DNA from: Ridgeia piscesae | Taxonomy: Eukaryota > Annelida > Polychaeta > Sabellida > Siboglinidae | Reading direction: 5' to 3' | Length of the DNA stretch: 64,000 nucleotides | Assembly (NCBI GenBank): GCA_025642075.2 | Contig: JAODUO010000938.1 | Span: forward strand, 217,001-281,000 | In this document: positions 213 through 62,800 of the stretch, piece by piece | Layout of the letters: each line of letters opens with the position of its first letter | Numbering within the stretch: position 1 is the stretch's first letter | Program-made: the position numbers and the translations under genes | Notes under the pieces: generated by a model | What the model saw: only the letters and a program-made list of their open reading frames with translations | Told to the model about the DNA's origin: nothing | Databases searched by the model: none

Positions 213-14777
<14,565 letters not shown>

Positions 14778-37500: not shown

Positions 37501-40500
37501 TTAGCTACTCGTACATCAGCTGCAACAACCACCTTAATTTGGTTTAGATATTCCTTAGCTCTGTGCATTTTGTCGTTCTTTCCCTTCGATGCAAATTGTT
37601 TTATAGCACAATTATAAGATTATGGTTATACAAAGCTGAGGCACGTACATGACTTCACATGACAGGAAGTACTTATAATCTATCTCCATTCTCCACTCAC
37701 AGAAGAGCTCTAGGATGATGACAGGCAATGACTTTTTCAGGTGGTACTTGTGGACTACGGCACACGGGCAACGGTCAATGCTGAAGATGTCCGGCCAGTG
37801 ACCGAGCCCATACTGGACATTCCAGCTCAGGTGTTAACCTGCTCGCTCGACGGAATTGAGGCACCAAACTGGACACCAGAGGGCAGCAAGTACTTTAAGG
37901 GTGAGTGAATGCAGGAAACTTGTCTGGCTGTCACTGGAGGTTGGCAGGAATGATTAGGATGTCGAAAGTGTACTAGCTTGTGTGATAAACCGAACTATCG
38001 CGCAGAATAAATTTTATGTAATCGTTATATTTATATGTTAATTGTCGTTTGTTCAATATATGTTCCCTGAGGTGATACTGTCGACTCGTTCTTTGAAATG
38101 ACGATGGCAGGAATTTTGGTATTGCTCACTCATATGAGCCCTGTCTTATGGGGTGGTGAAGGGAGGGTCCTGATGACAGTAAATGTTTTGTTTCCAGAAA
38201 TCTGTTCTGACAGAGAGTTGAGACTGAGCTTCACGTCACATGAGGATAACAACGTGTACCCTGTGTACATGTACGACGCGACAAATAACAGTACGGCAAC
38301 CATCAACACTATGCTTGTGGAGCGAGGCTTTGCATCGATGCGTTACTACGGCACAAACATACTCGGTACGGTGCTTATTCAGTGTCTCGTGTGTTTGAAT
38401 AACTTTTATAAAATATTTATTGTGTGCCACAAGTTGTGAGGATCGTGTTGGCATCAATTGAAATTAACACGGATGAACGCAGCAATGCAACCAACTGCTG
38501 GTGGAATATTTCGCTTAAAATCTCAATGATGAATGGGAAAGGTTGGCTTGAACCGCAAGTTGCTGTTTCAGAGAGGTCGTTCCTGGAGGGTGAGGAGGGT
38601 GAGGAGGATGAGGAGACGGACGCGGGGGCAGAGAGAATAGATGGCAGAGAAACACAAGTGACACAACCAGGTCAGTGTTGTCAAAAGTCACCACCCCTCC
38701 CATGGCTTGTTTAGAAGCATTGTCACAGCACAGTGACAGAAACGACCGTCCATTGTGATGGTATCCTCAAGAAGCTCAGCTATCAGTGAAACACCAGACT
38801 TATGAAGTGGTTTATCATGAAGAGGGACGTATAAAAGTTAACACTAGACTGAGGTAGTTCAAGGTAGGACTCAGTCACAAAGTAAAGAAATCATAGGTTC
38901 TGGAAATGTTGCTCAAATAGGAACATACATATATAAAATGTGGTCTCCAACAAGATATGATTGCTCTTATTCTGCAAAGGCAGCTAGTGAATATATTCTG
39001 GCCAAACGGAATTAAATAAATATTGAGCAGATTATCAACATTTAGCATTTTCTTTATAATTTGCATTTTAATAACCACAGTAAAGTCATATAAATATAGT
39101 GTCATGATTGTTTCAAACAAACATTCTGTGCCAACTTACAATGAACAGTATAAAGTGAATTAAAAATATATTCTTAGTCATCAGAGACGTAATCTTGTTA
39201 CATAATGACCCCGTTTGGTTGCGACAGACATTGAGATGTTCCACCAGCTTGCCTACGTGGCTGGCCAGCAGGTGGCAGTACAGGTAGTGAGCGCACGAGA
39301 CCCCGACAACATCGTGTGTCAACGCATCGACTCGGACAACACATTCCAGACTCTCATGACACAACTCGCTGTCGAATACGCAGGTAGGACATTGGCGTGT
39401 CATTGTCACTGACGAATAAATAATATCGAATAAAAAGGTTCATTCATTTTATTGGAGGCAAAGAAAGAACCAAATTGCTTATTCGTTAAGTCAAACATTG
39501 GGTTTGTTGATCGCATCATATATTGTGAACAGTTTCTTTTAATCAGATAAGAAATGTTGTGTGTTTACGACTTTCTGATGTGTGACATAAAATATGTGAA
39601 TATACTAAAGAAATGTTTCTTTCTGATTGATGAATGTTCGTATGTGCCACAGACGACTATTCTGACCCCTAAACCCCTTTCATCCTAAACAGCACAGACG
39701 CAGGCTGTTCTGGCGAATCCATGCATCGGGCAGCCATGTTGTGTGCGCTACACAAGAGACGGCACCTGGCGGCGAGCGCAGGTACTAGCTGTGCGAGACG
39801 ACACTGTCGACGTTTACCACGTGGATTATGGGAAGAAGGAGATGGTTCCAACGACGGCGGTGCGAGATCTACAGGCACGATTCCTGGCATTGCCGGCGCA
39901 GACTACGCGGTGCTGTCTGCACCGCGTGGAGCCAACATCTCTCGCATGGTCTGATGGTAAGTGGGGCGAACCATCAGTGGTAGTTGTAGTGGGTAAACAG
40001 ACCACTGGGGCTACTTTTTCTCTGCTTGGTATCTGTCATCATGGGTGAAAGTAGCCATGGTTACCATCGTCTTTTTCTGTGTCTTTTCTATCCTCACTTT
40101 TCTCTCACTGCGTTCTCTAACCCCATTCTCCTCCCATTTTCTCCCGATCCCTCTTAACACAATCTTCCCATTGCATTTTCAGTTTTCCTCACCTCCTTTT
40201 TCCCTCCACTTTCTGGACATCTCTTAGCCAGTTTTTCATCTCCATTCGTTCCCACTTGTGCCACAGAAAACTACTGTCTGTAAGCATGTTTCTTTTTCTG
40301 TTTGGTTTGTTATTTTTTTAACCGAACTTATGCATCAGAAATGTTTTTAAAATAGCACCATTAAACAGGGGTATCATAACAGGGGCTACTGGGTTAACGA
40401 CATGTCATGATTGCAGACGTCCAGGATATTGAAGGTGTAGGAAGAGACATGTATGTGAGGGGTGAGGGGTTAATGATGTGTCGTGATTGCAGACATCCTG

Positions 40501-43500
40501 GATATTGAACGTGTTGGGATAGACATGTTTGTGAGGGGTAAGGGGTTAATGATGTGTCATGATTGCAGACATCCTGGATATTGAATGTGTTGGAATAGAC
40601 ATGTATGTGAGTGGTAATGGGTTAATGATGTGTCATGATTGCAGACATCCTGGATACTGAACGTGTTGGAAGAGACATGTTTGTAAGGGGTAATGGGTTA
40701 ATAGTGTGTCATAATTGCAGACATCCGGGACGTGTTGGAGGAGGCGTGTTGTCGAGAGAGTAATGACGGTCAGTCGTTGCCTGTCACCCTCACTGTCATC
40801 AGCACCGACGACGATGACAGAATCATCGTCGACATCGAGACGTGGTGAGTCACTAGAAATTGCAGCAGGGTCACCAAATGAATCAATTCTAGAACTGTCT
40901 CACAGCAGTTGATTAATTATGAACATTGAATGATTACAACCATTGAAATATATGTAAGTATTGATCAGCAACCCACTTGTGATGTCCAAATGTGACGTTT
41001 ATATTTGTCTATTTGTCTGGTTGTCATTGTCAACTTGTATGGCTAGAGTGAGTACCTTTGTTTTCTGTGTCGATCGGTCGAAGATTGTTGCCATAACAAT
41101 TAAACAGGCCCACCAAATTGGGTTAAATAACCCTGAAACAGTGTTTGTAGTATGAATGGAGTGGCCAGGAAATGTTAAAAATCATCACACCTGGCTCAGT
41201 CACATCACAATGTAATCTATTACTTAGTTTCAATCCTAGTACTGTTACATTCCGAATGCAACATACTGCATTACTACCGCTCCTGGTTTACAAATCGTAA
41301 ACAGAACCTACTCGTAAACCTATTGGCAATGTTGTGGAGGGTCTCTTGCTTTACCACGTTGTTCTCGTCTTGTGCCTGTCGTCAGGGGTGAGGTTGTCAT
41401 CTTTTCTTCGTCCTTTCTTTCCTCTCATTTATCCCTCATTGCGTTCTCTATCACCAGTCTCCAGCTTCTATGTTTTGCTTGTCTCCATTCTCCTCCCAGT
41501 CTTTCCAACACCTTTTAATGCACACACCACTCCCACATTCAATATAATATATGCAGTGAACTTCCTGCTAATAATTCCCATGCTAGGCTGATTGAGGGTC
41601 CGATGAGACCCGGCCAGTGAATGTGGGTTGCTGAGGTCCTGTGTCCCTGTTGCAGTGAGGGCGTCAACCTGCGGGAACTTCTGATGGACAGGAAACTGGC
41701 CGTGGTGGACGGTCACGACCCGGAGGCCTTTGACGCCATAGAGGAGGAGGAGGCAGAGGGCGAGGATGGGAGCGGGGAGCAGGAGATGACCGGGAACCCA
41801 CTGGAGGAGGATGTGAGTGCGGAGGTAAATTGGGAGCGGGACTCATGGAGTACTGACTACTGTGGCTGGTAGTGGTGGTGCGGTGGTGCAATGGCTAAAT
41901 CTTTGGACTCTACTAAGAGAACCCGGGTTCGAATCCTGTGCTGCTGCGTCAAACCTTGGGCAAGTTTGTTCACTCTACATTGCTCCAGTTCACTCAGCCG
42001 TATAAATGAGAACCTGGCTGTAGACATCAGTGGATATTTGTGTACGAATAGTCTTCGCACATTTATAGCAGCGTGGCTAGATGCTTACCAGTTTCATTAT
42101 ACAGGTCTGCAAGGGAGTAAAAAAGTGTAAAGCGCTTTGAGTAATCTCGAGGATTGGATACTGCGCTATATAAGAACTTTACTTCGCAAGCATGTAGCCA
42201 ACAGATTGTCATCAGTGTATCGTGTAAGCTGGAAGTGCATTGTAGAAATGTAGTGTAGCGTGTGTCGGGGGATGTAACAAGTGTTACAAAACATGTAATA
42301 AGTTTCGCATACAAAATGTAACATGTACTGGAGCATCTGTAACACGTATATGTCATACATGTAGTGAATCATGTGTCTGTCACACATGTAGTGTATCATG
42401 TGTCTGTCACACATGTAGTGTATCACGTGTCTGTCACACAGGTAGTGTATCATGTGTCTGTCATATATGTAGTCTATCATGTGTCTGTCACACATGTAGT
42501 GTATCATGTGTCTATCACACATGTAGTGTATCATGTGTCTGTCACACAGGTAGTGTATCATGTGTCTGTCATATATGTAGTCTATCATGTGTCTGTCACA
42601 CATGTAGTGTATCATGTGTCTGTCCCACATGTAGTGTATCACGTGTCTGTCACACAGGTAGTGTATCATGTTTCTGTCACACATGTAGTGTATCACCTGT
42701 CTTTCACACATGTAGTGTATCATGTATCTGTCACACATGTAGTGTATCATGTGTCTGTCACACATCTAGTGTATCATGTATCTGTCACACATGTAGTGTA
42801 TCATGTGTCTGTCACACATCTAGTGTATCATGTGTCTGTCACACATGTAGTGTATCATGTATCTGTCACACATGTAGTGTATCACGTGTCTTTCACACAT
42901 GTAGTGTATCATGTATCTGTCACACATGTAGTGTATCATGTGTCTGTCACACATGTAGTGTATCATGTGTCTGTCACACATGTAGTGTATCATGTGTCTG
43001 TCACACATGTAGTGTATCATGTGTCTGTCACACATGTAGTGTATCATGTATCTGTCATATCATGTGCCTGCTGTTAAAACAAACTCTAGCAGGTGTATCG
43101 TGTATGTCATACAACCCATAACAGTCTGACAAAGTGACAGGTGTCATTCACTATTAATGAGCAGGTGTCTTGTTCTAACTGTAGCGAGTGTTTTCTACAA
43201 ATTGTAACACGCGTTGTTTGTACCAGCCTGCTGCTCTGTGTGTGGAGTACAAGCCACGCACCCTGAAAGAGGGAGACCACTGCAGCGTCTTCCTGAGTCA
43301 CTGCGTCAACCCGGGTCAGATTTGGTGTCAGGTTGCATCCGATGACCTCCAAGTACTCATGGATCGCATGCAAGGTGAGTCTTGTTGAGATGGTCCTGTG
43401 GGTTGATGATGTAATTAATGGCTTTTGTTCCGTTGTAAGGCTTACATTTTTCCGGCGTTATAAATGTCCCGATTGACGTTTCTGCACATGCGCGATAAAT

Positions 43501-46500
43501 GTAAAAATCACCAATGTGCAGCGAAACGACAAAGCATTTATGGTATAAATACCACAGGCTGTTCGTTAGGATGTATATAACCTCTCAGCAAAGTTATTTA
43601 TCCCAAATTAACACAAGGCAAACAAGTTTTGAGGCATGTTTCGATAGCAAGCGCAAAACATGTGTCTGTAGTGCGCTATAATCCGTGACAGTGATAAACA
43701 AATGTAATATTTTAATGTATTGAACGGCATTTTAAGCAACTCTTCACAGTAATCATCACAGAGAGTTAACGAACAGCTCGTGGCATTTATACCATAAATG
43801 CTTTGTTGTTTCGCTGCACAATGATGATTTTTACATTTATCGTGCATGCGCAGAAACGTCGATCAGACAGTTTATAACAATCGGAAAAATGTAAGTGCAA
43901 CACCGTGTGTATAAGGTGTGTTTGTGTTCCAAACGTTGTGTGGTGTGTTTGTGGGTTCCAGACATTGTCTGTGGCATGTGTTCAGTGTGTTTGTGTGTTT
44001 CAGACTACTACTGTGATGAAGATATGGAGGCTGCACCGTCTCATCTCAAGGACGGGGACATGTGCTGTGTGTTGTCCACTGAAGACAACCTGTGGTACAG
44101 GGCCCAGGTCAGTGCGGGTCATTTGGTACAGGCAAGGTCAGTGGGGGTCATTTGGTACAGGCAAGGTCAGTGGGGTCATTTGGTACAGGGCAAGGTCAGT
44201 GGGGTCATTTGGTACAGGGCATAGATCAGTGGGGGTCATTTGGCACAGGGCACAGGTCAGTGCGGGTCATTTGGTACAGGCAAGGTCAGTGGGGGTCATT
44301 TGGTACAGGGCAAAGGTCAGTGGGGGTCATTTGGTACAGGGCATAGATCAGTGGGGGTCATTTGGTACAGGGCACAGGTCAGTGGGGGTCATTTGGTACA
44401 GGGCATAGATCAGTGGGGGTCATTTGGCACAGGGCACAGGTCAGTGGGGGTCATTTGGTACAGGGCATAGATCAGTGGGGGTCATTTGGCACAGGGCATA
44501 GGTCAGTGGGGGTCATTTGGTACAGGGCATAGATCAGTGGGGGTCATTTGGCACAGGGCATAGGTCAGTGGGGGTCATTTGGTACAGGGCATAGATCAGT
44601 GGGGGTCATTTGGCACAGGGCATAGGTCAGTGGGGGTCATTTGGTACAGGGCATAGATCAGTGGGGGTCATTTGGCATACAGGGCATAGGGTCAGTGGGG
44701 GTCATTTGGTACAGGGCCACAGGTCAGTGGGGGTCATTTGGTACAGGAAGTCAGTGGGGGTCATTTGGACAGGGCAGGTCAGTGGGGGTCATTTGGTACA
44801 GGCAAGTCAGTGGGGGTCATTTGGACAGCAAGGTCAGTGGGGGTCATTTGGTACAGGGCATAGATCAGTGGGGGTCATTTGGCACAGGGCATAGGTCAGT
44901 GGGGGTCATTTGGTACAGGGCATAGATCAGTGGGGGTCATTTGGCACAGGCCACAGGTCAGTGGGGGTCATTTGGTACAGGGCATAGATCAGTGGGGGTC
45001 ATTTGGCACAGGGCATAGGTCAGTGGGGGTCATTTGGTACAGGGCATAGATCAGTGGGGGTCATTTGGCACAGGGCACAGGTCAGTGGGGGTCATTTGGT
45101 ACAGGGCATAGATCAGTGGGGGTCATTTGGCACAGGGCACAGGTCAGTGGGGGTCATTTGGTACAGGGCATAGATCAGTGGGGGTCATTTGGCACAGGGC
45201 CCAGGTCAGTGCGGGTCATTTGGTACAGGGCATAGATCAGTGGGGGTCATTTGGCACAGGGCACAGGTCAGTGCGGGTCATTTGGTACAGGGCATAGATC
45301 AGTGGGGGTCATTTGGTACAGGGCACAGGTCAGTGGGGGTCATTTGGTACAGGGCATAGATCAGTGGGGGTCATTTGGTACAGGGCAAAGGTCAGTGGGG
45401 GTCATTTGGTACAGCGCAAGGGTCAGTGGGGGTCATTTGGTACAGGGCACAGTTCAGTGGGGTCATACACACGCACGACACAACACGCACATACACCAAT
45501 GGTCTTTTTCACACCCCATATTTAAAGTTACATCTGAGAACAGACCAGTGACACTATTCATGTGAAATCACTCTTCTTGCAGTAATCATTTTAATTGTGC
45601 AATTAATATTTTTCATTCAAATTAGAGCGTGACGTTAGTTTTTGTGGCTTAATGTTAGAAAGTGTTTGTTGTGCAGGTGGAGAGCTGCTATTATAGAGCT
45701 GTGTCCATTGTATGCCGGTAGAGAGCTCATATGATGTTAGAGCTGCGTTTATTGTGCAGGTAGAGAGCTATGATGTTGGAGCTGTGTTTGTTGTGTGCAG
45801 GTAGAGAGCTCCTGTGATGTTAGAGCTGTGTTTGTTGTGTGCAGGTAGAGAGCTCCTGTGATGTTAGAGCTGTGTTTGTTGTGTGCATGTAGAGAGCTCC
45901 TGTGATGTTAGAGCTGTGTTTGTTGTGTGCATGTAGAGAGCTCCTGTGATGTTAGACTGTGTTTGTTGTGTGCATGTAGAGAGCTCCTGTGATGTTAGAG
46001 CTGTGTTTGTTGTGTGCATGTAGAGAGCTCCTGTGATGTTAGAGCTGTGTTTGTTGTGTGCATGTAGAGAGCTCCTGTGATGTTAGAGCTGTGTTTGTTG
46101 TGTGCATGTAGAGAGCTCCTGTGATGTTAGAGCTGTGTTTGTTGTGTGCATGTAGAGAGCTCCTGTGATGTTAGAGCTGTGTTTGTTGTGTGCATGTAGA
46201 GAGCTCCTGTGATGTTAGAGCTGTGTTTGTTGTGTGCATGTAGAGAGCTCCTGTGATGTTAGAGCTGTGTTTGTTGTGTGCATGTAGAGAGCTCCTGTGA
46301 TGTTAGACTGTGTTTGTTGTGTGCATGTAGAGAGTGCCTGTGATGTTAGAGCTGTGTTTGTTGTGTGCATGTAGAGAGCTCCTGTGATGTTAGATCTGTG
46401 TTTGTTGTGTGCATGTAGAGAGCTCCTGTGATGTTAGAGCTGTGTTTGTTGTGTGCATGTAGAGAGCTCCTGTGATGTTAGAGCTGTGTTTGTTGTGTGC

Positions 46501-49500
46501 ATGTAGAGAGCTCCTGTGATGTTAGAGCTGTGTTTGTTGTGTGCATGTAGAGAGCTCCTGTGATGTTAGAGCTGTGTTTGTTGTGTGCATGTAGAGAGCT
46601 CTGTGATGTTAGAGCTGTGTTTGTTGTGTGCATGTAGAGAGCTTCTGTGATGTTAGATGTGTTTGTTGTGTGCATGTAGAGAGCTCCTGTGATGTTAGAG
46701 CTGTGTTTGTTGTGTGCATGTAGAGAGCTCCTGTGATGTTAGATATGTGTTTGTTGTGTGCATGTAGAGAGCTCCTGTGATGTTAGAGCTGTGTTTGTTG
46801 TGTGCATGTAGAGAGCTCCTGTGATGTTAGAGCTGTGTTTGTTGTGTGCATGTAGAGAGCTCCTGTGATGTTAGAGCTGTGTTTGTTGTGTGCATGTAGA
46901 GAGCTCCTGTGATGTTAGAGCTGTGTTTGTTGTGTGCATGTAGAGAGCTCCTGTGATGTTAGAGCTGTGTTTGTTGTGTGCATGTAGAGAGTGCCTGTGA
47001 TGTTAGAGCTGTGTTTGTTGTGTGCATGTAGAGAGCTCCTGTGATGTTAGAGCTGTGTTTGTTGTGTGCATGTAGAGAGCTCCTGTGATGTTAGAGCTGT
47101 GTTTGTTGTGTGCATGTAGAGAGCTCCTGTGATGTTAGAGCTGTGTTTGTTGTGTGCAGGTAGAGAGCTCCTGTGATGTTAGAGCTGTGTTTGTTGTGTG
47201 CATGTAGAGAGCTCCTGTGATGTTAGAGCTGTGTTTGTTGTGTGCATGTAGAGAGCTCCTGTGATGTTAGAGCTGTGTTTGTTGTGTGCAGGTAGAGAGC
47301 TCCTGTGATGTTAGAGCTGTGTTTGTTGTGTGCATGTAGAGAGCTCCTGTGATGTTAGATCTGTGTTTGTTGTGTGCAGGTAGAGAGCTCCTGTGATGTT
47401 AGAGCTGTGTTTGTTGTGTGCATGTAGAGAGCTCCTGTGATGTTAGATCTGTGTTTGTTGTGTGCATGTAGAGAGCGCCTGTGATGTTAGAGCTGTGTTT
47501 GTTGTGTGCATGTAGAGAGCGCCTGTGATGTTAGATCTGTGTTTGTTGTGTGCATGTAGAGAGCTCCTGTGATGTTAGACTGTGTTTGTTGTGTGCATGT
47601 AGAGAGTGCCTGTGATGTTAGATCTGTGTTTGTTGTGTGCATGTAGAGAGCTCCTGTGATGTTAGATCTGTGTTTGTTGTGTGCAGGTAGAGAGCTCCTG
47701 TGATGTTAGAGCTGTGTTTGTTGTGTGCATGTAGAGAGCGCCTGTGATGTTAGAGCTGTGTTTGTTGTGTGCATGTAGAGAGCGCCTGTGATGTTAGATC
47801 TGTGTTTGTTGTGTGCATGTAGAGAGCTCCTGTGATGTTAGAGCTGTGTTTGTTGTGTGCATGTAGAGAGCTCCTGTGATGTTAGATCTGTGTTTGTTGT
47901 GTGCATGTAGAGAGCTCCTGTGATGTTAGATCTGTGTTTGTTGTGTGCAGGTAGAGAGCGCCTGTGATGTTAGATCTGTGTTTGTTGTGTGCATGTAGAG
48001 AGCGCCTGTGATGTTAGAGCTGTGTTTGTTGTGTGCATGTAGAGAGCTCCTGTGATGTTAGATCTGTGTTTGTTGTGTGCATGTAGAGAGTGCCTGTGAT
48101 GTTAGAGCTGTGTTTGTTGTGTGCATGTAGAGAGCTCCTGTGATGTTAGAGCTGTGTTTGTTGTGTGCATGTAGAGAGTGCCTGTGATGTTAGATCTGTG
48201 TTTGTTGTGTGCATGTAGAGAGCTCCTGTGATGTTAGATCTGTGTTTGTTGTGTGCAGGTAGAGAGTGCCTGTGATGTTAGAGCTGTGTTTGTTGTGTGC
48301 ATGTAGAGAGCTCCTGTGATGTTAGATCTGTGTTTGTTGTGTGCATGTAGAGAGTGCCTGTGATGTTAGAGCTGTGTTTGTTGTGTGCATGTAGAGAGTG
48401 CCTGTGATGTTAGATCTGTGTTTGTTGTGTGCATGTAGAGAGCTCCTGTGATGTTAGATCTGTGTTTGTTGTGTGCAGTAGAGAGCTCCTGTGATGTTAG
48501 AGCTGTGTTTGTTGTGTGCATGTAGAGAGCGCCTGTGATGTTAGAGCTGTGTTTGTTGTGTGCATGTAGAGAGCGCCTGTGATGTTAGATCTGTGTTTGT
48601 TGTGTGCATGTAGAGAGCTCCTGTGATGTTAGAGCTGTGTTTGTTGTGTGCATGTAGAGAGCTCCTGTGATGTTAGATCTGTGTTTGTTGTGTGCATGTA
48701 GAGAGCTCCTGTGATGTTAGATCTGTGTTTGTTGTGTGCATGTAGAGAGCTCCTGTGATGTTAGATCTGTGTTTGTTGTGTGCATGTAGAGAGTGCCTGT
48801 GATGTTAGATCTGTGTTTGTTGTGTGCATGTAGAGAGCTCCTGTGATGTTAGATCTGTGTTTGTTGTGTGCATGTAGAGAGCTCCTGTGATGTTAGAGCT
48901 GTGTTTGTTGTGTGCATGTAGAGAGCTCCTGTGATGTTAGATCTGTGTTTGTTGTGTGCATGTAGAGAGCGCCTGTGATGTTAGATCTGTGTTTGTTGTG
49001 TGCATGTAGAGAGCGCCTGTGATGTTAGATCTGTGTTTGTTGTGTGCATGTAGAGAGCTCCTGTGATGTTAGATCTGTGTTTGTTGTGTGCATGTAGAGA
49101 GCTCCTGTGATGTTAGATCTGTGTTTGTTGTGTGCATGTAGAGAGCTCCTGTGATGTTAGAGCTGTGTTTGTTGTGTGCAGGTAGAGAGCTCCTGTGATG
49201 TTAGAGCTGTGTTTGTTGTGTGCATGTAGAGAGCGCCTGTGATGTTAGAGCTGTGTTTGTTGTGTGCATGTAGAGAGCTCCTGTGATGTTAGAGCTGTGT
49301 TTGTTGTGTGCATGTAGAGAGCGCCTGTGATGTTAGAGCTGTGTTTGTTGTGTGCATGTAGAGAGCGCCTGTGATGTTAGATCTGTGTTTGTTGTGTGCA
49401 TGTAGAGAGCTCCTGTGATGTTAGAGCTGTGTTTGTTGTGTGCATGTAGAGAGCTCCTGTGATGTTAGAGCTGTGTTTGTTGTGTGCAGGTAGAGAGCTC

Positions 49501-52500
49501 CTGTGATGTTAGAGCTGTGTTTGTTGTGTGCAGATAGAGAGCTCCTGTGATGTTAGAGCTGTGTTTGTTGTGTGCATGTAGAGAGCTCCTGTGATGTTAG
49601 AGCTGTGTTTGTTGTGTGCATGTAGAGAGCTCCTGTGATGTTAGAGCTGTGTTTGTTGTGTGCAGGTAGAGAGCTCCTGTGATGTTAGATCTGTGTTTGT
49701 TGTGTGCATGTAGAGAGCTCCTGTGATGTTAGATCTGTGTTTGTTGTGTGCAGGTAGAGAGCGCCTGTGATGTTAGAGCTGTGTTTGTTGTGTGCATGTA
49801 GAGAGCTCCTGTGATGTTAGACCTGTGTTTGTTGTGTGCATGTAGAGAGCTCCTGTGATGTTAGAGCTGTGTTTGTTGTGTGCATGTAGAGAGCTCCTGT
49901 GATGTTAGACCTGTGTTTGTTGTGTGCATGTAGAGAGCGCCTGTGATGTTAGAGCTGTGTTTGTTGTGTGCATGTAGAGAGCGCCTGTGATGTTAGAGCT
50001 GTGTTTGTTGTGTGCATGTAGAGAGCTCCTGTGATGTTAGAGCTGTGTTTGTTGTGTGCATGTAGAGAGCGCCTGTGATGTTAGATCTGTGTTTGTTGTG
50101 TGCATGTAGAGAGCTCCTGTGATGTTAGATCTGTGTTTGTTGTGTGCAGGTAGAGAGCTCCTGTGATGTTAGATCTGTGTTTGTTGTGTGCAGGTAGAGA
50201 GCTCCTGTGATGTTAGATCTGTGTTTGTTGTGTGCAGATAGAGAGCTCCTGTGATGTTAGAGCTGTGTTTGTTGTGTGCATGTAGAGAGCTCCTGTGATG
50301 TTAGAGCTGTGTTTGTTGTGTGCATGTAGAGAGTGCCTGTGATGTTAGATCTGTGTTTGTTGTGTGCAGGTAGAGAGCTCCTGTGATGTTAGAGCTGTGT
50401 TTGTTGTGTGCATGTAGAGAGTGCCTGTGATGTTAGATCTGTGTTTGTTGTGTGCATGTAGAGAGCTCCTGTGATGTTAGAGCTGTGTTTGTTGTGTGCA
50501 TGTAGAGAGCTCCTGTGATGTTAGAGCTGTGTTTGTTGTGTGCATGTAGAGAGCTCCTGTGATGTTAGAGCTGTGTTTGTTGTGTGCATGTAGAGAGCTC
50601 CTGTGATGTTAGAGCTGTGTTTGTTGTGTGCAGGTAGAGAGCTCCTGTGATGTTAGAGCTGTGTTTGTTGTGTGCATGTAGAGAGCTCCTGTGATGTTAG
50701 AGCTGTGTTTGTTGTGTGCAGGTAGAGAGTGCCTGTGATGTTAGAGCTGTGTTTGTTGTGTGCATGTAGAGAGTGCCTGTGATGTTAGATCTGTGTTTGT
50801 TGTGTGCATGTAGAGAGCTCCTGTGATGTTAGATCTGTGTTTGTTGTGTGCATGTAGAGAGCGCCTGTGATGTTAGAGCTGTGTTTGTTGTGTGCATGTA
50901 GAGAGCGCCTGTGATGTTAGATCTGTGTTTGTTGTGTGCATGTAGAGAGCTCCTGTGATGTTAGATCTGTGTTTGTTGTGTGCATGTAGAGAGCTCCTGT
51001 GATGTTAGAGCTGTGTTTGTTGTGTGCATGTAGAGAGCTCCTGTGATGTTAGAGCTGTGTTTGTTGTGTGCATGTAGAGAGCTCCTGTGATGTTAGATCT
51101 GTGTTTGTTGTGTGCATGTAGAGAGCTCCTGTGATGTTAGATCTGTGTTTGTTGTGTGCATGTAGAGAGCTCCTGTGATGTTAGAGCTGTGTTTGTTGTG
51201 TGCATGTAGAGAGCGCCTGTGATGTTAGAGCTGTGTTTGTTGTGTGCATGTAGAGAGCTCCTGTGATGTTAGAGCTGTGTTTGTTGTGTGCATGTAGAGA
51301 GCTCCTGTGATGTTAGAGCTGTGTTTGTTGTGTGCATGTAGAGAGCTCCTGTGATGTTAGAGCTGTGTTTGTTGTGTGCATGTAGAGAGCTCCTGTGATG
51401 TTAGAGCTGTGTTTGTTGTGTGCATGTAGAGAGCTCCTGTGATGTTAGAGCTGTGTTTGTTGTGTGCATGTAGAGAGCTCCTGTGATGTTAGAGCTGTGT
51501 TTGTTGTGTGCATGTAGAGAGCTCCTGTGATGTTAGAGCTGTGTTTGTTGTGTGCATGTAGAGAGCGCCTGTGATGTTAGACTGTGTTTGTTGTGTGCAT
51601 GTAGAGAGCTCCTGTGATGTTAGACTGTGTTTGTTGTGTGCATGTAGAGAGCTCCTGTGATGTTAGACTGTGTTTGTTGTGTGCATGTAGAGAGCTCCTG
51701 TGATGTTAGAGCTGTGTTTGTTGTGTGCATGTAGAGAGCTCCTGTGATGTTAGAGCTGTGTTTGTTGTGTGCATGTAGAGAGCTCCTGTGATGTTAGAGC
51801 TGTGTTTGTTGTGTGCATGTAGAGAGTGCCTGTGATGTTAGAGCTGTGTTTGTTGTGTGCATGTAGAGAGCTCCTGTGATGTTAGAGCTGTGTTTGTTGT
51901 GTGCATGTAGAGAGCCTGTGATGTTAGAGCTGTGTTTGTTGTGTGCATGTAGAGAGTGCCTGTGATGTTAGATCTGTGTTTGTTGTGTGCATGTAGAGAG
52001 CTCCTGTGATGTTAGAGCTGTGTTTGTTGTGTGCATGTAGAGAGCTCCTGTGATGTTAGAGCTGTGTTTGTTGTGTGCATGTAGAGAGTGCCTGTGATGT
52101 TAGAGCTGTGTTTGTTGTGTGCATGTAGAGTGCCTGTGATGTTAGATCTGTGTTTGTTGTGTGCATGTAGAGAGCTCCTGTGATGTTAGAGCTGTGTTTG
52201 TTGTGTGCATGTAGAGAGTGCCTGTGATGTTAGAGCTGTGTTTGTTGTGTGCATGTAGAGAGTGCCTGTGATGTTAGATCTGTGTTTGTTGTGTGCATGT
52301 AGAGAGCTCCTGTGATGTTAGAGCTGTGTTTGTTGTGTGCATGTAGAGAGCTCCTGTGATGTTAGAGCTGTGTTTGTTGTGTGCATGTAGAGAGCTCCTG
52401 TGATGTTAGAGCTGTGTTTGTTGTGTGCATGTAGAGAGTGCCTGTGATGTTAGATATGTGTTTGTTGTGTGCAGGTAGAGAGCGCCTGTGATGTTAGAGC

Positions 52501-54267
52501 TGTGTTTGTTGTGTGCATGTAGAGAGCTCCTGTGATGTTAGAGCTGTGTTTGTTGTGTGCATGTAGAGAGCTCCTGTGATGTTAGAGCTGTGTTTGTTGT
52601 GTGCAGGTAGAGAGCTCCTGTGATGTTAGAGCTGTGTTTGTTGTGTGCAGGTAGAGAGCTCCTGTGATGTTAGAGCTGTGTTTGTTGTGTGCAGGTAGAG
52701 AGCTCCTGTGATGTTAGAGCTGTGTTTGTTGTGTGCATGTAGAGAGCGCCTGTGATGTTAGAGCTGTGTTTGTTGTGTGCAGATAGAGAGCTCCTGTGAT
52801 GTTAGAGCTGTGTTTGTTGTGTGCATGTAGAGAGCTCCTGTGATGTTAGAGCTGTGTTTGTTGTGTGCATGTAGAGAGCTCCTGTGATGTTAGAGCTGTG
52901 TTTGTTGTGTGCATGTAGAGAGCGCCTGTGATGTTAGAGCTGTGTTTGTTGTGTGCATGTAGAGAGCTCCTGTGATGTTAGATATGTGTTTGTTGTGTGC
53001 ATGTAGAGAGCTCCTGTGATGTTAGAGCTGTGTTTGTTGTGTGCATGTAGAGAGCTCCTGTGATGTTAGATATGTGTTTGTTGTGTGCATGTAGAGAGCT
53101 CCTGTGATGTTAGATATGTGTTTGTTGTGTGCATGTAGAGAGCTCCTGTGATGTTAGAGCTGTGTTTGTTGTGTGCAGGTAGAGAGCTCCTGTGATGTTA
53201 GAGCTGTGTTTGTTGTGTGCATGTAGAGAGCTCCTGTGATGTTAGAGCTGTGTTTGTTGTGTGCATGTAGAGAGCTCCTGTGATGTTAGAGCTGTGTTTG
53301 TTGTGTGCAGGTAGAGAGCTCCTGTGATGTTAGAGCTGTGTTTGTTGTGTGCATGTAGAGAGCTCCTGTGATGTTAGAGCTGTGTTTGTTGTGTGCATGT
53401 AGAGAGCTCCTGTGATGTTAGATATGTGTTTGTTGTGTGCATGTAGAGAGCTCCTGTGATGTTAGATCTGTGTTTGTTGTGTGCATGTAGAGAGCTCCTG
53501 TGATGTTAGAGCTGTGTTTGTTGTGTGCATGTAGAGAGCTCCTGTGATGTTAGAGCTGTGTTTGTTGTGTGCATGTAGAGAGCTCCTGTGATGTTAGAGC
53601 TGTGTTTGTTGTGTGCATGTAGAGAGCTCCTGTGATGTTAGATATGTGTTTGTTGTGTGCATGTAGAGAGCTCCTGTGATGTTAGAGCTGTGTTTGTTGT
53701 GTGCAGATAGAGAGCTCCTGTGATGTTAGAGCTGTGTTTGTTGTGTGCATGTAGAGAGCTCCTGTGACGATAGAGCTGTTTGTTGTGCAGGTGGAGAGCT
53801 GTGTTTGTTGTGCAGGTGGAGAGCTGTGATAGAGCTGTGTTTGTTGTGCAGGTGGAGAGCTGTGATAGAGCTGTGTTTGTTGTGCAGGTGGAGAGCTGTG
53901 ATAGAGCTGTGTTTGTTGTGCAGGTGGAGAGCTGTGATAGAGCTGTGTTGTGTTGCATGAGAGCTGTGAGTAGAGCTGTTTGTTGTGCAGGTGTAGAGCT
54001 GTGTTTGTTGTGCAGGTGGAGAGCTGTGATAGAGCTGTGTTTGTTGTGCAGGTGGAGAGCTGTGATAGAGCTGTGTTTGTTGTGCAGGTGGAGAGCTGTG
54101 ATAGAGCTGTGTTTGTTGTGCAGGTGGAGAGCTGTGATAGAGCTGTGTTTGTTGTGCAGGTGGAGAGCTCCTACGAGGACGTGTACACGGTGTTGTTTGT
54201 TGACCACGTCCATAGGCACCCGTCTGGCCGATGGCGCCTCCTGGATGTAGCCATGTTCCGTCACTAA
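18812..54267 (+). CDS. giant multi-Tudor germline protein (about 19 Tudor domains)
   Basis: Tudor-domain family protein (Drosophila Tudor/TDRD1/TDRD6/TDRD15 type). Such proteins scaffold germ granules by binding symmetrically dimethylated arginines of Piwi proteins (family knowledge). Exons: 18812-21078, 22098-22354, 26871-32414, 33008-33215, 33997-35085, 35678-36326, 36903-37172, 37741-37900, 38198-38365, 38572-38670, 39228-39383, 39693-39956, 40721-40844, 41656-41812, 43227-43374, 44004-44107, 54160-54267. All join in phase to 3,923 residues. Tudor cores start near residues 61, 267, 442, 643, 825, 1073, 1300, 1518, 1767, 1955, 2136, 2344, 2550, 2750, 2973, 3186, 3400, 3628 and 3868, spaced about 180-250 as in extended Tudor units. 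Most keep WYRA and F(V/I)DYGN; cores 3 (DFSSDG), 13 (DCGTSE), 17 (DYGTRA) and 18 (DYGKKE) lack cage or Asn residues. The nineteenth stops short after FVDH. No RNA-binding, MYND or helicase domain was seen. Confidence 0.93.
21079..22097. other. Tudor-gene intron; nothing seen
   Basis: AT-rich. Open frames at 21455-22004 have no Tudor similarity or splice support. Confidence 0.55.
22098..22354 (+). CDS. Tudor gene exon 2: N-terminal half of Tudor core 5
   Basis: Acceptor ccggcag, donor gtcagt. Encodes VVVTLVDDPEHFYCQLTASE (the extended-Tudor SN-like lead-in) and IAKYSEDEGWYRARVT. The Tudor core is completed by exon 3 after a 4.5-kb intron. Confidence 0.93.
22476..22536 (+). repeat. (GT)n microsatellite
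   Basis: About 60 bp of nearly pure GT dinucleotides with one GG interruption at the middle. Confidence 0.97.
26126..26440. repeat. 36-bp minisatellite in Tudor-gene intron
   Basis: About nine copies of a 36-bp unit (theme attgtattccggatagaaa plus gcgtaactacgaatag). Because 36 is a multiple of 3, open frames with 12-residue periodicity appear on both strands; they are side effects. Confidence 0.95.
26871..32414 (+). CDS. Tudor gene exon 3: end of core 5 and cores 6-13
   Basis: A 5.5-kb exon with acceptor tgttgtag and donor gtgaga. Contains MFVDYGNHE (core 5) and then eight complete extended-Tudor repeats with WYRA/WYRG/WYRS and FVDYGN-type cores (VQFVDYGNEE, VQFVDYGNDE, VKYVDYGNTE, VHFVDYGNSE, VRFIDYGNVE, VRYIDFGNSS, VKFVDYGNTD, VTLIDCGTSE). 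Each is preceded by a lead-in of the form VxVSHVxSPxxFWCQL. Core 13 lacks the aromatic Tyr and Asn of the methylarginine cage. Confidence 0.95.
29327..29398 (+). repeat. 18-bp coding repeat (APPARQ)n
   Basis: In-frame tandem repeat in exon 3, about four copies of QAPPAR in the linker between Tudor cores 8 and 9. Unit length is a multiple of three, so length change keeps the frame. Confidence 0.9.
32415..33007. other. Tudor-gene intron; nothing seen
   Basis: AT-rich intron; no repeats or coding signal recognised. Confidence 0.6.
33008..33215 (+). CDS. Tudor gene exon 4: lead-in of core 14
   Basis: Acceptor gctgtag, donor gttggt. Encodes KIEVYVSHFVSPTRFWCQLV and ends ALCVIR, continued by YKDDSLYRARV in exon 5 with matching phase. 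Confidence 0.93.
33216..33996. other. Tudor-gene intron with a duplicated segment
   Basis: Two related stretches, about 33440-33480 and 33696-33755, share gattagcc...caggctc...aggtggcag...gcagcact. Possibly an old repeat, not classified. No exon expected. Confidence 0.4.
33997..35085 (+). CDS. Tudor gene exon 5: end of core 14 and core 15
   Basis: Acceptor caacag, donor gtgagt. Contains FCIDYGNTTSV (core 14) and a full core 15 with SWCRARV (Cys for the usual Tyr in WYRA) and VYVDYGNIETV. The acidic linker ENSEEEDVDVVNGD lies between. Confidence 0.94.
35086..35677. other. Tudor-gene intron; nothing seen
   Basis: AT-rich intron with no recognised element. Confidence 0.6.
35678..36326 (+). CDS. 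Tudor gene exon 6: core 16
   Basis: Acceptor tatccag, donor gtaagt. Encodes LEVHVVSAVSPCNFWCQ, IWHRAMI (His in place of Tyr) and VRFVDYGNTRDV, plus a C-terminal extended-Tudor segment with IGQQLVDSGYG. Ends at phase 0. Confidence 0.94.
36327..36902. other. Tudor-gene intron; nothing seen
   Basis: AT-rich intron with no recognised element. Confidence 0.6.
36903..37172 (+). CDS. Tudor gene exon 7: first half of core 17
   Basis: Acceptor attgacag, donor gtatat. Exactly 90 codons, phase 0-0. Encodes CLVRSGRDSEWHRAFV and ends DTYE, continued by VVLVDYGTRATV in exon 8. Confidence 0.9.
37173..37740. other. Tudor-gene intron; nothing seen
   Basis: AT-rich intron splitting Tudor core 17; no recognised element. 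Confidence 0.6.
37741..37900 (+). CDS. Tudor gene exon 8: second half of core 17
   Basis: Acceptor ctttttcag, donor gtgagt. VVLVDYGTRATV keeps DYG but has Thr in place of the cage Asn, followed by the usual IPAQVLTCSLDGIEAP strand. Leaves at phase 1. Confidence 0.92.
38198..38365 (+). CDS. Tudor gene exon 9: C-terminal extended-Tudor segment
   Basis: Acceptor tttccag, donor gtacgg. 168 nt, phase 1-1. Encodes LRLSFTSHEDNNVYPVYMYD and MLVERGFAS, the closing SN-like strand and helix of an extended Tudor. Confidence 0.88.
38572..38670 (+). CDS. Tudor gene exon 10: acidic linker
   Basis: Acceptor gtttcag, donor gtcagt. 99 nt, phase 1-1. Encodes SFLEGEEGEEDEETDAGAE, a low-complexity acidic spacer. 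Skipping it would keep the frame. Confidence 0.8.
38671..39227. other. Tudor-gene intron; nothing seen
   Basis: AT-rich intron with no recognised element. Confidence 0.6.
39228..39383 (+). CDS. Tudor gene exon 11: lead-in of core 18
   Basis: Acceptor gcgacag, donor gtagga. 156 nt, phase 1-1. Encodes QQVAVQVVSARDPDNIVCQR and LMTQLAVEYA, the SN-like lead-in strand and helix. Confidence 0.9.
39693..39956 (+). CDS. Tudor gene exon 12: core 18
   Basis: Acceptor taaacag, donor gtaagt. 264 nt, phase 1-1. Encodes GQPCCVRYTRDGTWRRAQV and VYHVDYGKKEMV: Arg replaces the Tyr of WYRA and Lys replaces the cage Asn, so methylarginine binding is doubtful (inference). Confidence 0.93.
39957..40416. other. 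Tudor-gene intron, upstream part
   Basis: Pyrimidine-rich stretch around 40050-40230 on the plus strand (many ttctcc/ttcct words), otherwise nothing recognised. It leads into the splice-acceptor repeats. Confidence 0.55.
40414..40720 (+). repeat. 76-bp tandem repeat of an acceptor plus exon start
   Basis: Acceptor-like gattgcag ends at 40416, 40492, 40568 and 40644, and the real one at 40720: a constant 76-bp step. Each is followed by acatcctggatattgaa-type sequence resembling the real exon start acatccgggacgtgttgg. Four decoys precede the functional acceptor. The unit is not a multiple of three. Confidence 0.93.
40721..40844 (+). CDS. Tudor gene exon 13
   Basis: Acceptor taattgcag, donor gtgagt. 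Encodes DIRDVLEEACCRESNDGQSL and VTLTVISTDDDDRIIVDIET. Split codon tg|t gives Cys with exon 14. It is a C-terminal extended-Tudor strand following core 18. Confidence 0.9.
40845..41655. other. Tudor-gene intron; nothing seen
   Basis: Pyrimidine-rich patch near 41400-41520, otherwise no recognised element. Confidence 0.55.
41656..41812 (+). CDS. Tudor gene exon 14: VNLRELL helix and acidic linker
   Basis: Acceptor gttgcag. Encodes EGVNLRELLMDRKLAVV, the closing helix typical of extended Tudors, then an acidic EEEEAEGEDGSGEQEM run. Two phase-0 donors are possible: gtgagt after 41812 (chosen) and gtaaat after 41824, which would add four residues. Confidence 0.88.
41876..42182 (+). mobile_element. 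tRNA-derived SINE
   Basis: The head resembles a tRNA, with an A-box-like tggctaaatctttgg (about 41893-41907) and a perfect B box ggttcgaatcc (41926-41936). A conserved-looking middle (ccttgggcaagtttgttcac, ctcagccgtataaatgagaa) and the tail aaagcgctttgagta...gcgctatataag follow; all three are typical of SINEs of marine invertebrates (family knowledge, subfamily not assigned). Lies in the sense direction in the intron after exon 14. Confidence 0.85.
42360..43060. repeat. 27-bp minisatellite in Tudor-gene intron
   Basis: About 26 copies of gtcacacatgtagtgtatca plus tgtgtct. Unit is nine codons, so both strands carry long open frames (VTHVVYHVS and MCDRHMIHY periodicity) that are not genes. No match to the flanking exons. 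Confidence 0.96.
43227..43374 (+). CDS. Tudor gene exon 15: lead-in of core 19
   Basis: Acceptor gtaccag, donor gtgagt. Encodes YKPRTLKEGDHCSVFLSHC and NPGQIWCQVASDD, the SN-like lead-in of a further Tudor unit. Leaves at phase 1. Confidence 0.92.
43441..43895. mobile_element. fold-back element with about 120-bp inverted arms
   Basis: The left arm (43441 to about 43555) and the right arm (about 43775 to 43895) are near-perfect inverted copies: cttacatttttcc against ggaaaaatgtaag at the tips, and catttatggtataaat against atttataccataaatg inside. About 220 bp of unique sequence lies between. No coding capacity; a non-autonomous element in an intron. Confidence 0.85.
44004..44107 (+). CDS. Tudor gene exon 16: first half of core 19
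   Basis: Acceptor tttcag, donor gtcagt. Encodes DGDMCCVLSTEDNLWYRAQ. The exon end tggtacagggcccag and its donor are the seed of the downstream 31-bp array. Confidence 0.93.
44090..45466 (+). repeat. 31-bp array built from the exon-16 splice donor
   Basis: Begins at the end of exon 16 itself. The unit is tggtacagggcacag followed by gtcagtgggggtcatt: the WYRAQ codons plus the 5' splice site and first intron bases. About 43 copies, alternating between variants tacagggcacag|gtcag, gcacagggcatag|gtcag and tacagggcatag|atcag. Many copies keep an AG|gtcagt donor. The 31-bp step changes frame each time, so all three forward frames look open in patches. Confidence 0.95.
45660..53770 (+). repeat. 8-kb array of 44-bp units related to the exon-17 acceptor
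   Basis: About 185 copies of gtagagagctcctgtgatgt plus tagagctgtgtttgttgtgtgcat. The end of the unit and the start of the next (tttgttgtgtgca[g/t]gtagagagctcc) mirror the real junction tttgttgtgcag|gtggagagctcc at 54159/54160. In most copies the acceptor AG reads AT (gcatg); a minority keep gcagg or gcaga. Other alternations are gagctgtg/gatctgtg and gagctcctg/gagcgcctg/gagtgcctg. Confidence 0.95.
53771..54159 (+). repeat. 36-bp sub-array with intact, in-frame acceptors
   Basis: Shorter units, gtggagagctgtgatagagc plus tgtgtttgttgtgcag, all ending in CAG. Acceptors at 54015, 54051, 54087, 54123 and the functional 54159 are 36 nt apart and in frame with exon 17. Each upstream choice would add the 12 residues VESCDRAVFVVQ with no stop. 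Confidence 0.9.
54160..54267 (+). CDS. Tudor gene exon 17: end of core 19, truncated
   Basis: Acceptor ttgtgcag. Encodes VESSYEDVYTVLFVDH, joined in phase to WYRAQ, then leaves the Tudor pattern (VHRHPSGRWRLLDVAMFRH) and stops at TAA 54265-54267. The expected YGN and the following IPxQAxxCxL strand are missing. Either this is a short terminal exon, or the exon is spliced onward to 56639 with a donor I cannot fix. Confidence 0.75.
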   Translation: MESSYEDVYTVLFVDHVHRHPSGRWRLLDVAMFRH

Positions 54268-55827: not shown

Positions 55828-56508
55828 GTGTCAACACAGCTAGGACTCAACATCAACAGAAGCAAGACAAGAATTATGAAAGCCAACACAAAGAACAACA
55901 ACCCCATTAGAGTCATTCACATACCTGGGCAGTACAATCAATAAACATGGAGGCACACAAGAAGACATCAAAGCAAGGATACAGAAAGCAAGAGTTGCAT
56001 TCATCATGTTGAGAAACATTTGGAGCGCAAAACAAATCAAAACTAACACCAAACTGAGAATATCCAATTCAAATGTCAAGGCAGTTTTACTCTATGGATC
56101 GGAGACATGGCGAAGTACACAGAAGACACTAAAAAGAATACAGACCTTCATCAACAAATGCCTGCATAGAATCCTACACCTGAAGTGGACAGACAAGATA
56201 TCCAACACTACACTCTGGAAAATGACCAAGCAACTACCCATAGAAAATTAAATAAAGAAGAGAAAATGGAGGTGGATAGGACATACACTCAGGAAACCAC
56301 AAAACACCATCACCCGTCAAGCCATCACATGGAACCCCCCAGGGAAGAGGCGAAGAGGTAGGCCACGAAACACCTGGCAAAGAGACACGGAAAAAGGAGC
56401 GAAGGAGATGGGATACACCAGGAGAGAAATGGAGAGGATGGCCACGGACAGAAAACGGTGGCGTTCCTTGGTCGATGGCCTATGCTCCCAGCGAGCAAAC
56501 AGGCATAA
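55828..56508 (+). mobile_element. 5'-truncated non-LTR retrotransposon with 13-bp target duplication
   Basis: Encodes the C-terminal part of a LINE endonuclease-reverse transcriptase protein, broken by a frameshift and a stop: GSTINKHGGTQEDIKARIQK, AVLLYGSETWRSTQKTLKRI, FINKCLHRIL, KRKWRWIGHTLRKP and GKRRRGRPRNTW. It is bounded by the direct repeat gtactaagcaata at 55815-55827 and 56509-56521, a target-site duplication. Only the 3' end was inserted. Clade not assigned. Confidence 0.9.
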
Positions 56509-56638
56509 GTACTAAGCAATATTATTATTACTATTTTGTTGTTGAATAAACTGATATTCATTCATTCATAACTTGAGTTACCTGTCCTCAGTGAAAGGTG
56601 AGACAGAATCAAGTTTACATGGGTCTGTCTGTCCTCAG

Positions 56639-59832: not shown

Positions 59833-62800
59833 CTGCAAGGTGAAAATAAGAATGTTTGTAATAATATAATAATAATACATGACTAATTGAGAAAGTTACA
59901 AGACAGAATTATTCAAAAACCACATATTTTTTATTTTATTTTGGCAAACTGTTTAGAACTTTAGATTTTGTCAAGAAACATCACACATTGGAACTAAATT
60001 TTGCAACGTCTCTGGTTGATAGTATACTGAAGGAAATGTGGAAGTATTTGTACTGTGAGGCTGGATATATAAATATTGTACCATTACTGTGGGGTTGGGG
60101 AGTTTGTACTTACCTGTACTATGTGGTTGGGGAGTTTGTACTTACCTGTACTATGTGGTTGGGGAGTTTGTACTTACCTGTACTATGTGGTTGGGGAGTT
60201 TGTACTTACCTGTACTATGTGGTTGGGGAGTTTGTACTTACCTGTACTATGTGGTTGGGGAGTTTGTACTTACCTGTACTATGTGGTTGGGGAGTTTGTA
60301 CTTACCTGTACTATGTGGTTGGGGAGTTTGTACTTACCTGTATTATGTGGTTGGGGAGTTTGTACTTACCTGTACTATGTGGTTGGGGAGTTTGTACTTA
60401 CCTGTACTATGTGGTTGGGGAGTTTGTACTTACCTGTACTGTGTGGTTGAGATGTCTACTTATTTGTACTTTGGGGTTGGGGAATCTGCACTTACCTGTA
60501 CTATGGGGTTGTGGAATCTACCTACCTGTATTATTGCATTGGGGAGTACTTACCTGTACTACTGAATTAGGGTGCCTGTACTTACTGTACCATAGGGTTG
60601 GGGAGTCTGTACTTACCTGTACTATGGGGTTGAGGCATCTGTACTTACCTGTACTATGGGGTTCGGTGTGTTTCCACACACGGTGTAGAGCAGTCCGTTC
60701 ATGATGGGGATCACCTTTGCTAGCGGCATCTCAACATCATTAGGACTGAAACATGACACATCAATAGACAACATTCTGAACAAGGTTTGAAACTAAATAA
60801 ATAATTTTGTAATAATATGTGTGCTGAAATAAAATGCTGATCACCAGTAATTTATAGATTGTGTTATAACATCAATAGGTATCAAATAACCTGAAACTTC
60901 AGTTAATTAAGTAAACATTGAATGGACGCTTCACTGTAAACATTTTAAATTCAAGAATGTTTTTTCTGGGAGCAGAACTGGAGTCAATTCCTTTCAATCA
61001 ATTCCAATTCCTTTTGATTCAATTCCAATTTCTTTTCAATTTTGCTGCTCCTGCTTCAATACCACACAGCAAAGGTTTGTCAAAGCTCATAATAATTTTG
61101 TCTAATGGGATATGGACCCTCGGGTACTTACTTGAAAATTGTTCCATTCTGTTGCGATGCTGGCTTAAAGTATTCTGCAATCCTGTCGACAATTCGTGAA
61201 AAGGCCGTGTCGAGACAAGTCCGCAAGACAGCATGGAAGTCTGAGCTGCAAGTTGAAGGATGTTGCCTGGATTAGGTGCTGTGACACAGTCCACAAACTA
61301 GGTCAATGTCACTTTCATGTTATCATGGACATGTTGGTGTTTCTCTAAATGTCTTCAATTACTCCCTAAATTCTCAACTAATTTAGCACAGAACTTCAAT
61401 ACGATAGCATATTGGCATGGATAACCACCCCACAGCAAAGCATTCCACGTTACAAGTTAGCCTCCACGGCACAGGTTAACTTCCACGCCACAGGTTAACT
61501 TCCATGGCACAGGTTAACTTCCACGTCACAGGTTAACTTCCATGGCACAGGTTAACTTCCATCACAGGTTAACTTCCACGTCACAGGTTACCTTCCATGT
61601 CACAGGTTAACCTCCATGTCACAGGTTAACTTCCATGTCACAGGTTAACTTCCATGTCACAGGTTAACTTCCATGTCACAGGTTAACTTCCATGGCACAG
61701 GTTAACTTCCATGTCACAGGTTAACCTCCATGTCACAGGTTAACTTACAGGTTAACTTCCACGTCACAGGTTAACTTCCATGGCACAGGTTAACTTCCAT
61801 GTCACAGGTTAACTTCCACGTCACAGGTTACCTTCCATGTCACAGGTTAACCTCCATGTCACAGGTTAACCTCCATGTCACATGTTAACTTCCATGTCAC
61901 AGGTAACTTCCATGTCACAGGTTAACTTCCATGGCACAGGTTAACTTCCATGGCACAGGTTAACCTCCATGTCACAGGTTAACTTCCATGTCACAGGTTA
62001 ACTTACAGGTTAACTTCCATGTCACAGGTTAACTTCCATGTCACAGGTTAACTTCCACGTCACAGGTTAACTTCCACGTCACAGGTTAACTTCCATGTCA
62101 CAGGTTAACCTCCATGTCACAGGTTAACCTCCATGTCACATGTTAACTTCCATGTCACAGGTAACTTCCATGTCACAGGTTAACCTCCATGGCACAGGTT
62201 AACTTCCATGTCACAGGTTAACTTCCATGTCACAGGTTAACTTCCACGTCACAGGTTACCTTCCATGTCACAGGTTAACCTCCATGTCACAGGTTAACCT
62301 CCATGTCACAGGTTAACCTCCATGGCACAGGTTAACTTCCATGTCACAGGTTAACTTCCATGTCACAGGTTAACTTCCATGTCACAGGTTAACTTCCATG
62401 TCACAGGTTAACTTCCATGTCACAGGTTAACTTCCATGTCACAGGTTAACTTCCATGTCACAGGTTAACTTCCATGTCACAGGTTAACCTCCATGTCACA
62501 GGTTAACTTCCATGTCACAGGTTAACTTCCATGTCACAGGTTAACTTCCATGTCACAGGTTAACTTCCATGTCACAGGTTAACTTCCATGTCACAGGTTA
62601 ACTTCCATGGCACAGGTTAACTTCCATGTCACAGGTTAACTTCCATGGCACAGGTTAACTTCCATGTCACAGGTTAACCTCCATGTCACAGGTTAACCTC
62701 CATGTCACAGGTTAACTTCCATGGCACAGGTTAACTTCCATGTCACAGGTTAACTTCCATGGCACAGGTTAACTTACAGGTTAACTTCCACGTCACAGGT

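Follow-up and report, generated by a model that had tools for sequence, protein, structure and literature searches.

Two unrelated minisatellites that span its own splice junctions occupy nearly all of a 10-kb intron in a Tudor-domain gene

Gene content of the window

The window, by which we mean the whole stretch of 64,000 nucleotides that was analysed, carries models of three protein-coding genes, whole or in part, which Pfam searches identified as a MIER1-like gene with an ELM2 domain, a large Tudor-domain gene, and a PEX3-like gene on the minus strand. The Tudor gene (18812-54267, plus strand) was modelled with 18 exons that encode 3,951 aa without an internal stop, the 72-bp exon 2 being the least certain of them. 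Its product is thus a very large protein, and at least 16 Tudor-type motif matches were found along its length.

Intron 17 of this gene comprises 10,052 bp (44108-54159) and separates exon 17 (44004..44107, plus strand) from exon 18 (54160..54267, plus strand, stop codon included). A previous sequence-only reading of this DNA had proposed the same intron coordinates, which the gene model reproduces exactly, whereas the flanking exons that it numbered 16 and 17 are exons 17 and 18 in the model. The last 15 bp of exon 17 and the first 10-13 bp of exon 18 recur inside the intron as the exonic parts of tandemly repeated donor and acceptor units, respectively.

Several other features of the window were recorded alongside the gene models. 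Just upstream, intron 16 of the Tudor gene holds an inverted repeat (43457-43568 and 43767-43878) with 112-nt arms that are 88% complementary and lie 198 nt apart, and this repeat looks like a MITE. Open frames at 55880-56512 on the plus strand match Pfam DUF6451 and presumably represent the end of a non-LTR retrotransposon. Those at 3762-4585 on the minus strand resemble a PIF/Harbinger transposase, and one piece of them had no match in Pfam. The sequence at 41870-42190 has the look of a tRNA-derived SINE; ARAGORN detected no tRNA in it. A separate Rfam search gave no match.

Donor- and acceptor-spanning arrays of intron 17

The donor side of intron 17 is occupied by a tandem array of 45 copies of a 31-bp unit (44093..45466, plus strand), each consisting of 15 exonic and 16 intronic bases, and the first copy is the true donor of exon 17. 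This is close to the number proposed from the sequence, where about 43 units holding the exon end and the donor had been noticed; our count includes the true one. The donor dinucleotide is GT in 28 of the 45 copies, AT in 16 and TT in one, and over long stretches of the array GT and AT copies alternate, giving rise to a higher-order unit of 62 bp. When the 24-mer centred on the true donor was searched for, 32 copies at 20/24 or better were found in its own intron (best 23/24), compared with a best match of 15/24 in the other 28 modelled introns, and the 9-mer of the donor is common to 12 of the 45 copies, the true one included.

The acceptor side carries two related arrays on the plus strand. 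Tandem-repeat analysis delimited 185 copies of a 44-bp unit at about 45664..53770, which are followed by 12 copies of a 36-bp unit, edge copies included, at 53771..54169, the last being the true acceptor of exon 18. Acceptor units thus total about 197, the true one included, and their exonic share is 10-13 bp. The arrays span about 45664-54159 of the intron, which agrees with the roughly 8.5 kb of 44- and 36-bp acceptor units reported before. Even the most distant part of the arrays still resembles the exon edge, as a distal copy at 45666 is identical to the true acceptor junction at 25 of 28 bases. For the true acceptor 24-mer, 30 copies at 20/24 or better were detected in its own intron (best 23/24), and the best match in other modelled introns reached 14/24; a 21-base acceptor word occurs in 11 exact copies, again counting the true one. 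The AG dinucleotide is kept in 29 of the 185 44-bp copies, as counted at column 23 of that unit, and in 9 of the 12 36-bp copies, while CAT replaces the acceptor CAG in 154 of the 185. The 44-bp array comprises 30 variants in irregular order, and the longest repeated run of variants is five copies. The earlier reading makes no mention of these lost splice sites.

According to the tandem-repeat boundaries, the arrays make up 9,825 of the 10,052 bp of intron 17 (97.7%), and once the additional acceptor copy at 45666 is counted, about 197 bp of non-array sequence are left. This core, which belongs to neither array, lies at 45467..45663, very near the interval of about 45470-45660 that had been given for the small remainder, and the description of the intron as built almost wholly from arrays of its own splice sites is borne out, since approximately 98% of it consists of tandem junction copies. 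The donor and acceptor units themselves are unrelated: their alignment is no better than that of shuffled sequences, with 200 of 200 and 104 of 200 shuffles being as good. Since three arrays in other introns are moreover one-sided (see below), two independent amplifications fit better than the single event that the earlier word bidirectional suggests, whereas amplification of the intron's own junctions holds.

Junction arrays in other introns

The analysis was extended to 58 junctions of 29 modelled introns in the three genes, using in each case a 24-mer of 12 exonic and 12 intronic bases; exons outside the models, in the 5' regions of the MIER- and the PEX3-like gene, do not contribute to this set. 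Copies in the own intron at 20/24 or better (range 20-24) were obtained for five of the 58 junctions, located in four of the 29 introns and in all three genes. For the other 53 junctions the best match in the own intron was at most 17/24, which equals the level seen in foreign introns, where the best match was only 14-17/24 for all 58 junctions in the window. A closer match of the units to some other repeat family than to the adjoining exons had been named as a refutation; this is not the case in the window, where no further modelled intron matches the junction words. Two donors and three acceptors bear arrays, so that both types of boundary are affected, and in each of the five arrays the true junction forms the exon-side end. 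Amplification on both sides is confined to intron 17, one of the 29 modelled introns.

The three one-sided arrays differ in unit and copy number. Tandem-repeat analysis together with the gene model placed five copies of a 76-bp acceptor unit at exon 14 of the Tudor gene (acceptor 40721; array 40391..40730, plus strand), where two copies in the own intron reach 20/24 or better, the best inner one 20/24, and where AG is found in 5/5 copies. In the MIER1-like gene, 46 copies of a 66-bp acceptor unit (9569..12573, plus strand) extend 32 bp into the modelled exon 8 (acceptor 12542), with AG in 46/46 copies. The PEX3-like gene contributes 19 copies of a 32-bp donor unit, a partial one at the end included (60085..60663, minus strand; donor 60648), with GT in 17/19, one AT and one gap. 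One unreadable edge row was left out of the site counts in the 76-bp Tudor array and in the PEX3-like array each. Altogether 15 of the 19 PEX3-like copies equal the true site (true one included); any two of the 11 full copies on the distal side show no more than two differences, and the seven exon-proximal ones are diverse. Divergence in the arrays is often greater at their edges.

Nine long intronic arrays (at least 300 bp) were obtained from 31 tandem-repeat rows after overlaps had been merged and the 44- and 36-bp arrays joined, shorter rows and a GT microsatellite being left aside. Five of the nine span a junction, compared with 1.58 expected under uniform seeding of non-array intron sequence (P = 0.009), a modest enrichment under a simple model that was picked after seeing the data. 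Because little non-array sequence exists in most such introns and a unit of 30-70 bp would often touch an edge, the association in part needs no special cause. The remaining four arrays (8002-9111, 26118-26431, 42351-43065 and 61443-63030) contain no junction. The 35-bp unit of these non-spanning arrays holds a donor-like GTCAGTGAG.

Pairwise comparison of the units revealed that 7 of 45 pairs reach a level at which at most 10 of 200 shuffles are as good; one of these is the 44/36 pair, and the rest are weak. The best of these weak pairs is MIER35 with TUD27 (1 of 200 shuffles as good), and the donor units TUD31 and PEX32 are matched by 5 of 200 shuffles. On the coding strand, with 45694-54169 taken for the acceptor arrays of intron 17, the G skew amounts to 0.44-0.66 in MIER66, TUD76, TUD31, TUD44, and TUD36, compared with 0.05 in other intron sequence; the PEX32 unit is skewed in the opposite direction (-0.37), and the non-spanning MIER35 unit has a skew of 0.58. 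The G-richness of five of the six junction units could point to a composition-driven origin, but the values of PEX32 and of the non-spanning MIER35 do not follow that pattern.

Reading frame and choice of splice sites

When the outermost donor and the outermost acceptor of intron 17 are joined, the reading frame stays open and 13 residues are placed between WYRA and FVD of the Tudor domain, in keeping with the spacing of 13-15 residues in the 15 other motif matches of the protein (16 in all). Inner sites mostly behave differently. Seven inner donor copies, one without GT, were tested, and only copy 4, located 87 bp in, reads through. Among the inner 36-bp acceptors with AG, eight were tested, and only the nearest four, which lie 36, 72, 108, and 144 bp upstream, read through; their use would insert one to four copies of VESCDRAVFVVQ, that is 12-48 residues. 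All remaining inner donors and 36-bp acceptors tested lead to a frameshift or an early stop. Since many array copies are identical to the true sites, position and not local strength must decide between them if the outermost sites are used.

As the most likely course, we propose that each junction of intron 17 would first have undergone a short tandem duplication across the exon edge, of 31 bp on the donor side and 36-44 bp on the acceptor side, and that the spliceosome would keep to the donor nearest the 5' end and the acceptor nearest the 3' end. With the outermost sites in use, inner copies become intronic and the mRNA is unchanged, so that arrays would be tolerated and free to expand. They may then have expanded and homogenised as minisatellites via slippage or unequal exchange, turning an intron of perhaps a few hundred bases into one of 10 kb. 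This scheme assumes that the junction copies are neutral. Both main units vary in few columns, and the splice dinucleotide is among these, a possible sign that decoys are selected against as opposed to full neutrality; there is little splice-site loss in the three other junction arrays. Taken together, we hold with good confidence that intron 17 consists to about 98% of two junction-spanning minisatellites with unrelated units, of the kind named mirages, and that these likely grew because splicing takes the copies outermost towards the exons.

Alternative explanations

The near acceptors raise the question of whether the arrays were selected as a splicing device, in which decoys slow or regulate splicing and the four acceptors at 36-144 bp, which retain both AG and an open frame, add Tudor cassettes of 12 residues. 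However, beyond these four of eight tested 36-bp acceptors, only one of seven tested donors reads through, the site is gone from most of the distal acceptor copies, and the insert would lie within a domain whose motifs are spaced by 13-15 residues, so that we regard such a function as improbable. That the arrays or their lengths arose during assembly deserves mention because one mirage was aberrantly assembled in a draft genome according to the accessible part of the amphioxus globin report. The lengths given here are those of the assembly, but the copies of the 44-bp array vary in irregular order, with a longest repeated run of only five, and the junctions of three genes carry five arrays that differ in their units, which makes an artefact very unlikely.

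The origin of the intron itself was also considered. Intron 17 might have been born when an AGGT segment within an exon was duplicated in tandem, as in the model of Rogers, in which case the donor and acceptor copies would share one origin. Both of its junctions indeed read CAG before and GT after the boundary, and the globin authors, in the part of their text that is accessible, propose that new introns can come from mirages. Nevertheless, the intron start matches the exon 18 start at 8/30 positions and the intron end matches the exon 17 end at 10/30, where chance gives 7.5 in both cases, and the alignment of the donor with the acceptor units does not exceed that of shuffled sequences, as described above. 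The likeness between exon and intron that this type of gain requires is absent, and we rejected it as highly implausible. Introners make introns in many eukaryotes, as excerpts of the relevant literature state, and units that stem from such a dispersed element, or from a satellite, could have brought the splice sites along. Similar copies would then be expected in several unrelated introns, yet no such copies are present among the modelled introns of the window, where all five junction 24-mers reach 20/24 or better solely in their own intron. A dispersed repeat was consequently dismissed, its chance of being the source being minimal. The growth of intron 17 from duplications of its own junctions remains our preferred reading.

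Placement of the host

The host was placed with the MIER protein, which makes it a likely relative of annelids and molluscs. Among the matches listed, the closest are lophotrochozoan, namely Capitella, Solemya, and Lingula; the window protein is 66-71% identical to those of Lingula, Capitella, and Solemya and 47-50% identical to those of Branchiostoma. Trees were built from 36 of 120 listed proteins and from 26 of 163 fetched ones, picked for taxon spread. In a one-gene tree that includes Branchiostoma, the window protein falls with protostomes at 100/98, and it groups with Lophotrochozoa at 90/82 in one tree and at 90/88 in the other, where the group includes Priapulus; neither tree has a star on this branch. 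A cephalochordate host, which the amphioxus literature would lead one to expect, was rejected, as the AU test on the one-gene MIER tree excluded a grouping of the window with Branchiostoma (p = 0.024); a grouping with all deuterostomes of the set (p = 0.15) and one with Lophotrochozoa (p = 0.25) were not rejected. The C-terminal part of the Tudor protein was useless for this purpose, as only 11 homologues at 22-26% identity were found among 2,007 scored.

Implications

Provided that the copies at the junctions of intron 17 are, as we think probable, removed unnoticed by splicing, the lengthening of introns from their junctions would cost little, as has been suggested for the mirage repeats of amphioxus. 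A wider generalisation is put forward more tentatively, and we find it about as easy to doubt as to accept: splice junctions may be birthplaces of minisatellites in a protostome too, where splicing shields straddling duplications, introns grow inward from their splice sites, and the spliceosome picks, by position alone, the outermost among about 66 sites with GT or AG retained, many of them identical. Should the placement prove right, long arrays across junctions are no oddity of amphioxus and maybe represent a general, overlooked route of intron lengthening. Intron 17 moreover offers a natural series of near-identical rival splice sites whose main difference is where they lie, and as the outermost of many identical sites would be chosen by position, it constitutes a natural test of exon definition. 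Because many array copies resemble the exon edge, junction arrays would also mislead gene prediction.

Comparison with known systems

Human introns that derive from tandem arrays are reportedly the subject of a PNAS title of 2007. The sequence-only reading knew of no described class of such introns, a view that fails because junction-spanning tandem repeats, termed mirages, have already been published from amphioxus. The papers used for comparison with mirages, boundary repeats, and minisatellites (PMC3087553, PMC3902484, PMC2812944, PMC2206037, PMC12783039, PMC7653826) were accessible in part. According to them, mirages were named in amphioxus Adh3 and also occur in globin, troponin C, and PGBD5 genes, with amplification possible at 5' as well as at 3' boundaries. 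The Adh3 data and RT-PCR on globins are said to suggest that regular splicing is undisturbed by mirages, and in the globin genes the cluster edges escape homogenisation. By name, mirages were encountered solely in amphioxus in a literature covered mostly outside subscription journals, so that earlier reports from protostomes are possible.

Boundary repeats outside amphioxus are likewise in print. In human genes located in segmental duplications, minisatellite-like repeats, some of them at exon-intron boundaries, are said to cause novel introns (PMC2812944). In contrast to the arrays of intron 17, these comprise units of about 30 bp repeated four times, 160 bp on average, and the accessible part of that report deals with the elongation of exons and introns and with new introns, not with extended arrays in which an intron repeats its own junction. 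Intron 17 shares the tandem duplication involving splice sites with the Rogers model and with the intron gain described for potato RdRp, again as far as the accessible excerpts go, but it was lengthened at its edges and its donor and acceptor units are unrelated. Long and variable tandem arrays inside an intron are also known from the minisatellite in intron 1 of the earthworm metallothionein gene (PMC12783039), whose monomers are not described as holding exon sequence in the accessible part of that paper, which mentions a separate duplication of exon 4.

The closest counterparts are the amphioxus mirages of the globin genes BflGb6 and BflGb9, Adh3, troponin C, and PGBD5. As in these, the units in the window span an exon-intron boundary at either the 5' or the 3' side, splice signals are present in many but not all units, and cluster edges are less homogenised. 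Published unit sizes are 10-72 bp for Adh3 and 150-160 bp for the globins, in the portions available; the window units of 31, 32, 36, 44, and 66 bp fall within the Adh3 range, and the 76-bp unit lies between the two. The same portions give six and three units for the haplotypes of BflGb6 and two to seven repeats for PGBD5. Unlike these globin and PGBD5 mirages, intron 17 is two-sided, with 45 donor and about 197 acceptor copies that fill 98% of 10 kb, and unlike in all amphioxus examples, the host is not amphioxus by the MIER tree. The junction arrays of the window therefore have the appearance of mirages from a different phylum, and their copies greatly outnumber those of the globin cases. 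As far as our literature search reaches, the novelty lies in the host, in the amplification of one intron at both ends, and in the number of copies.
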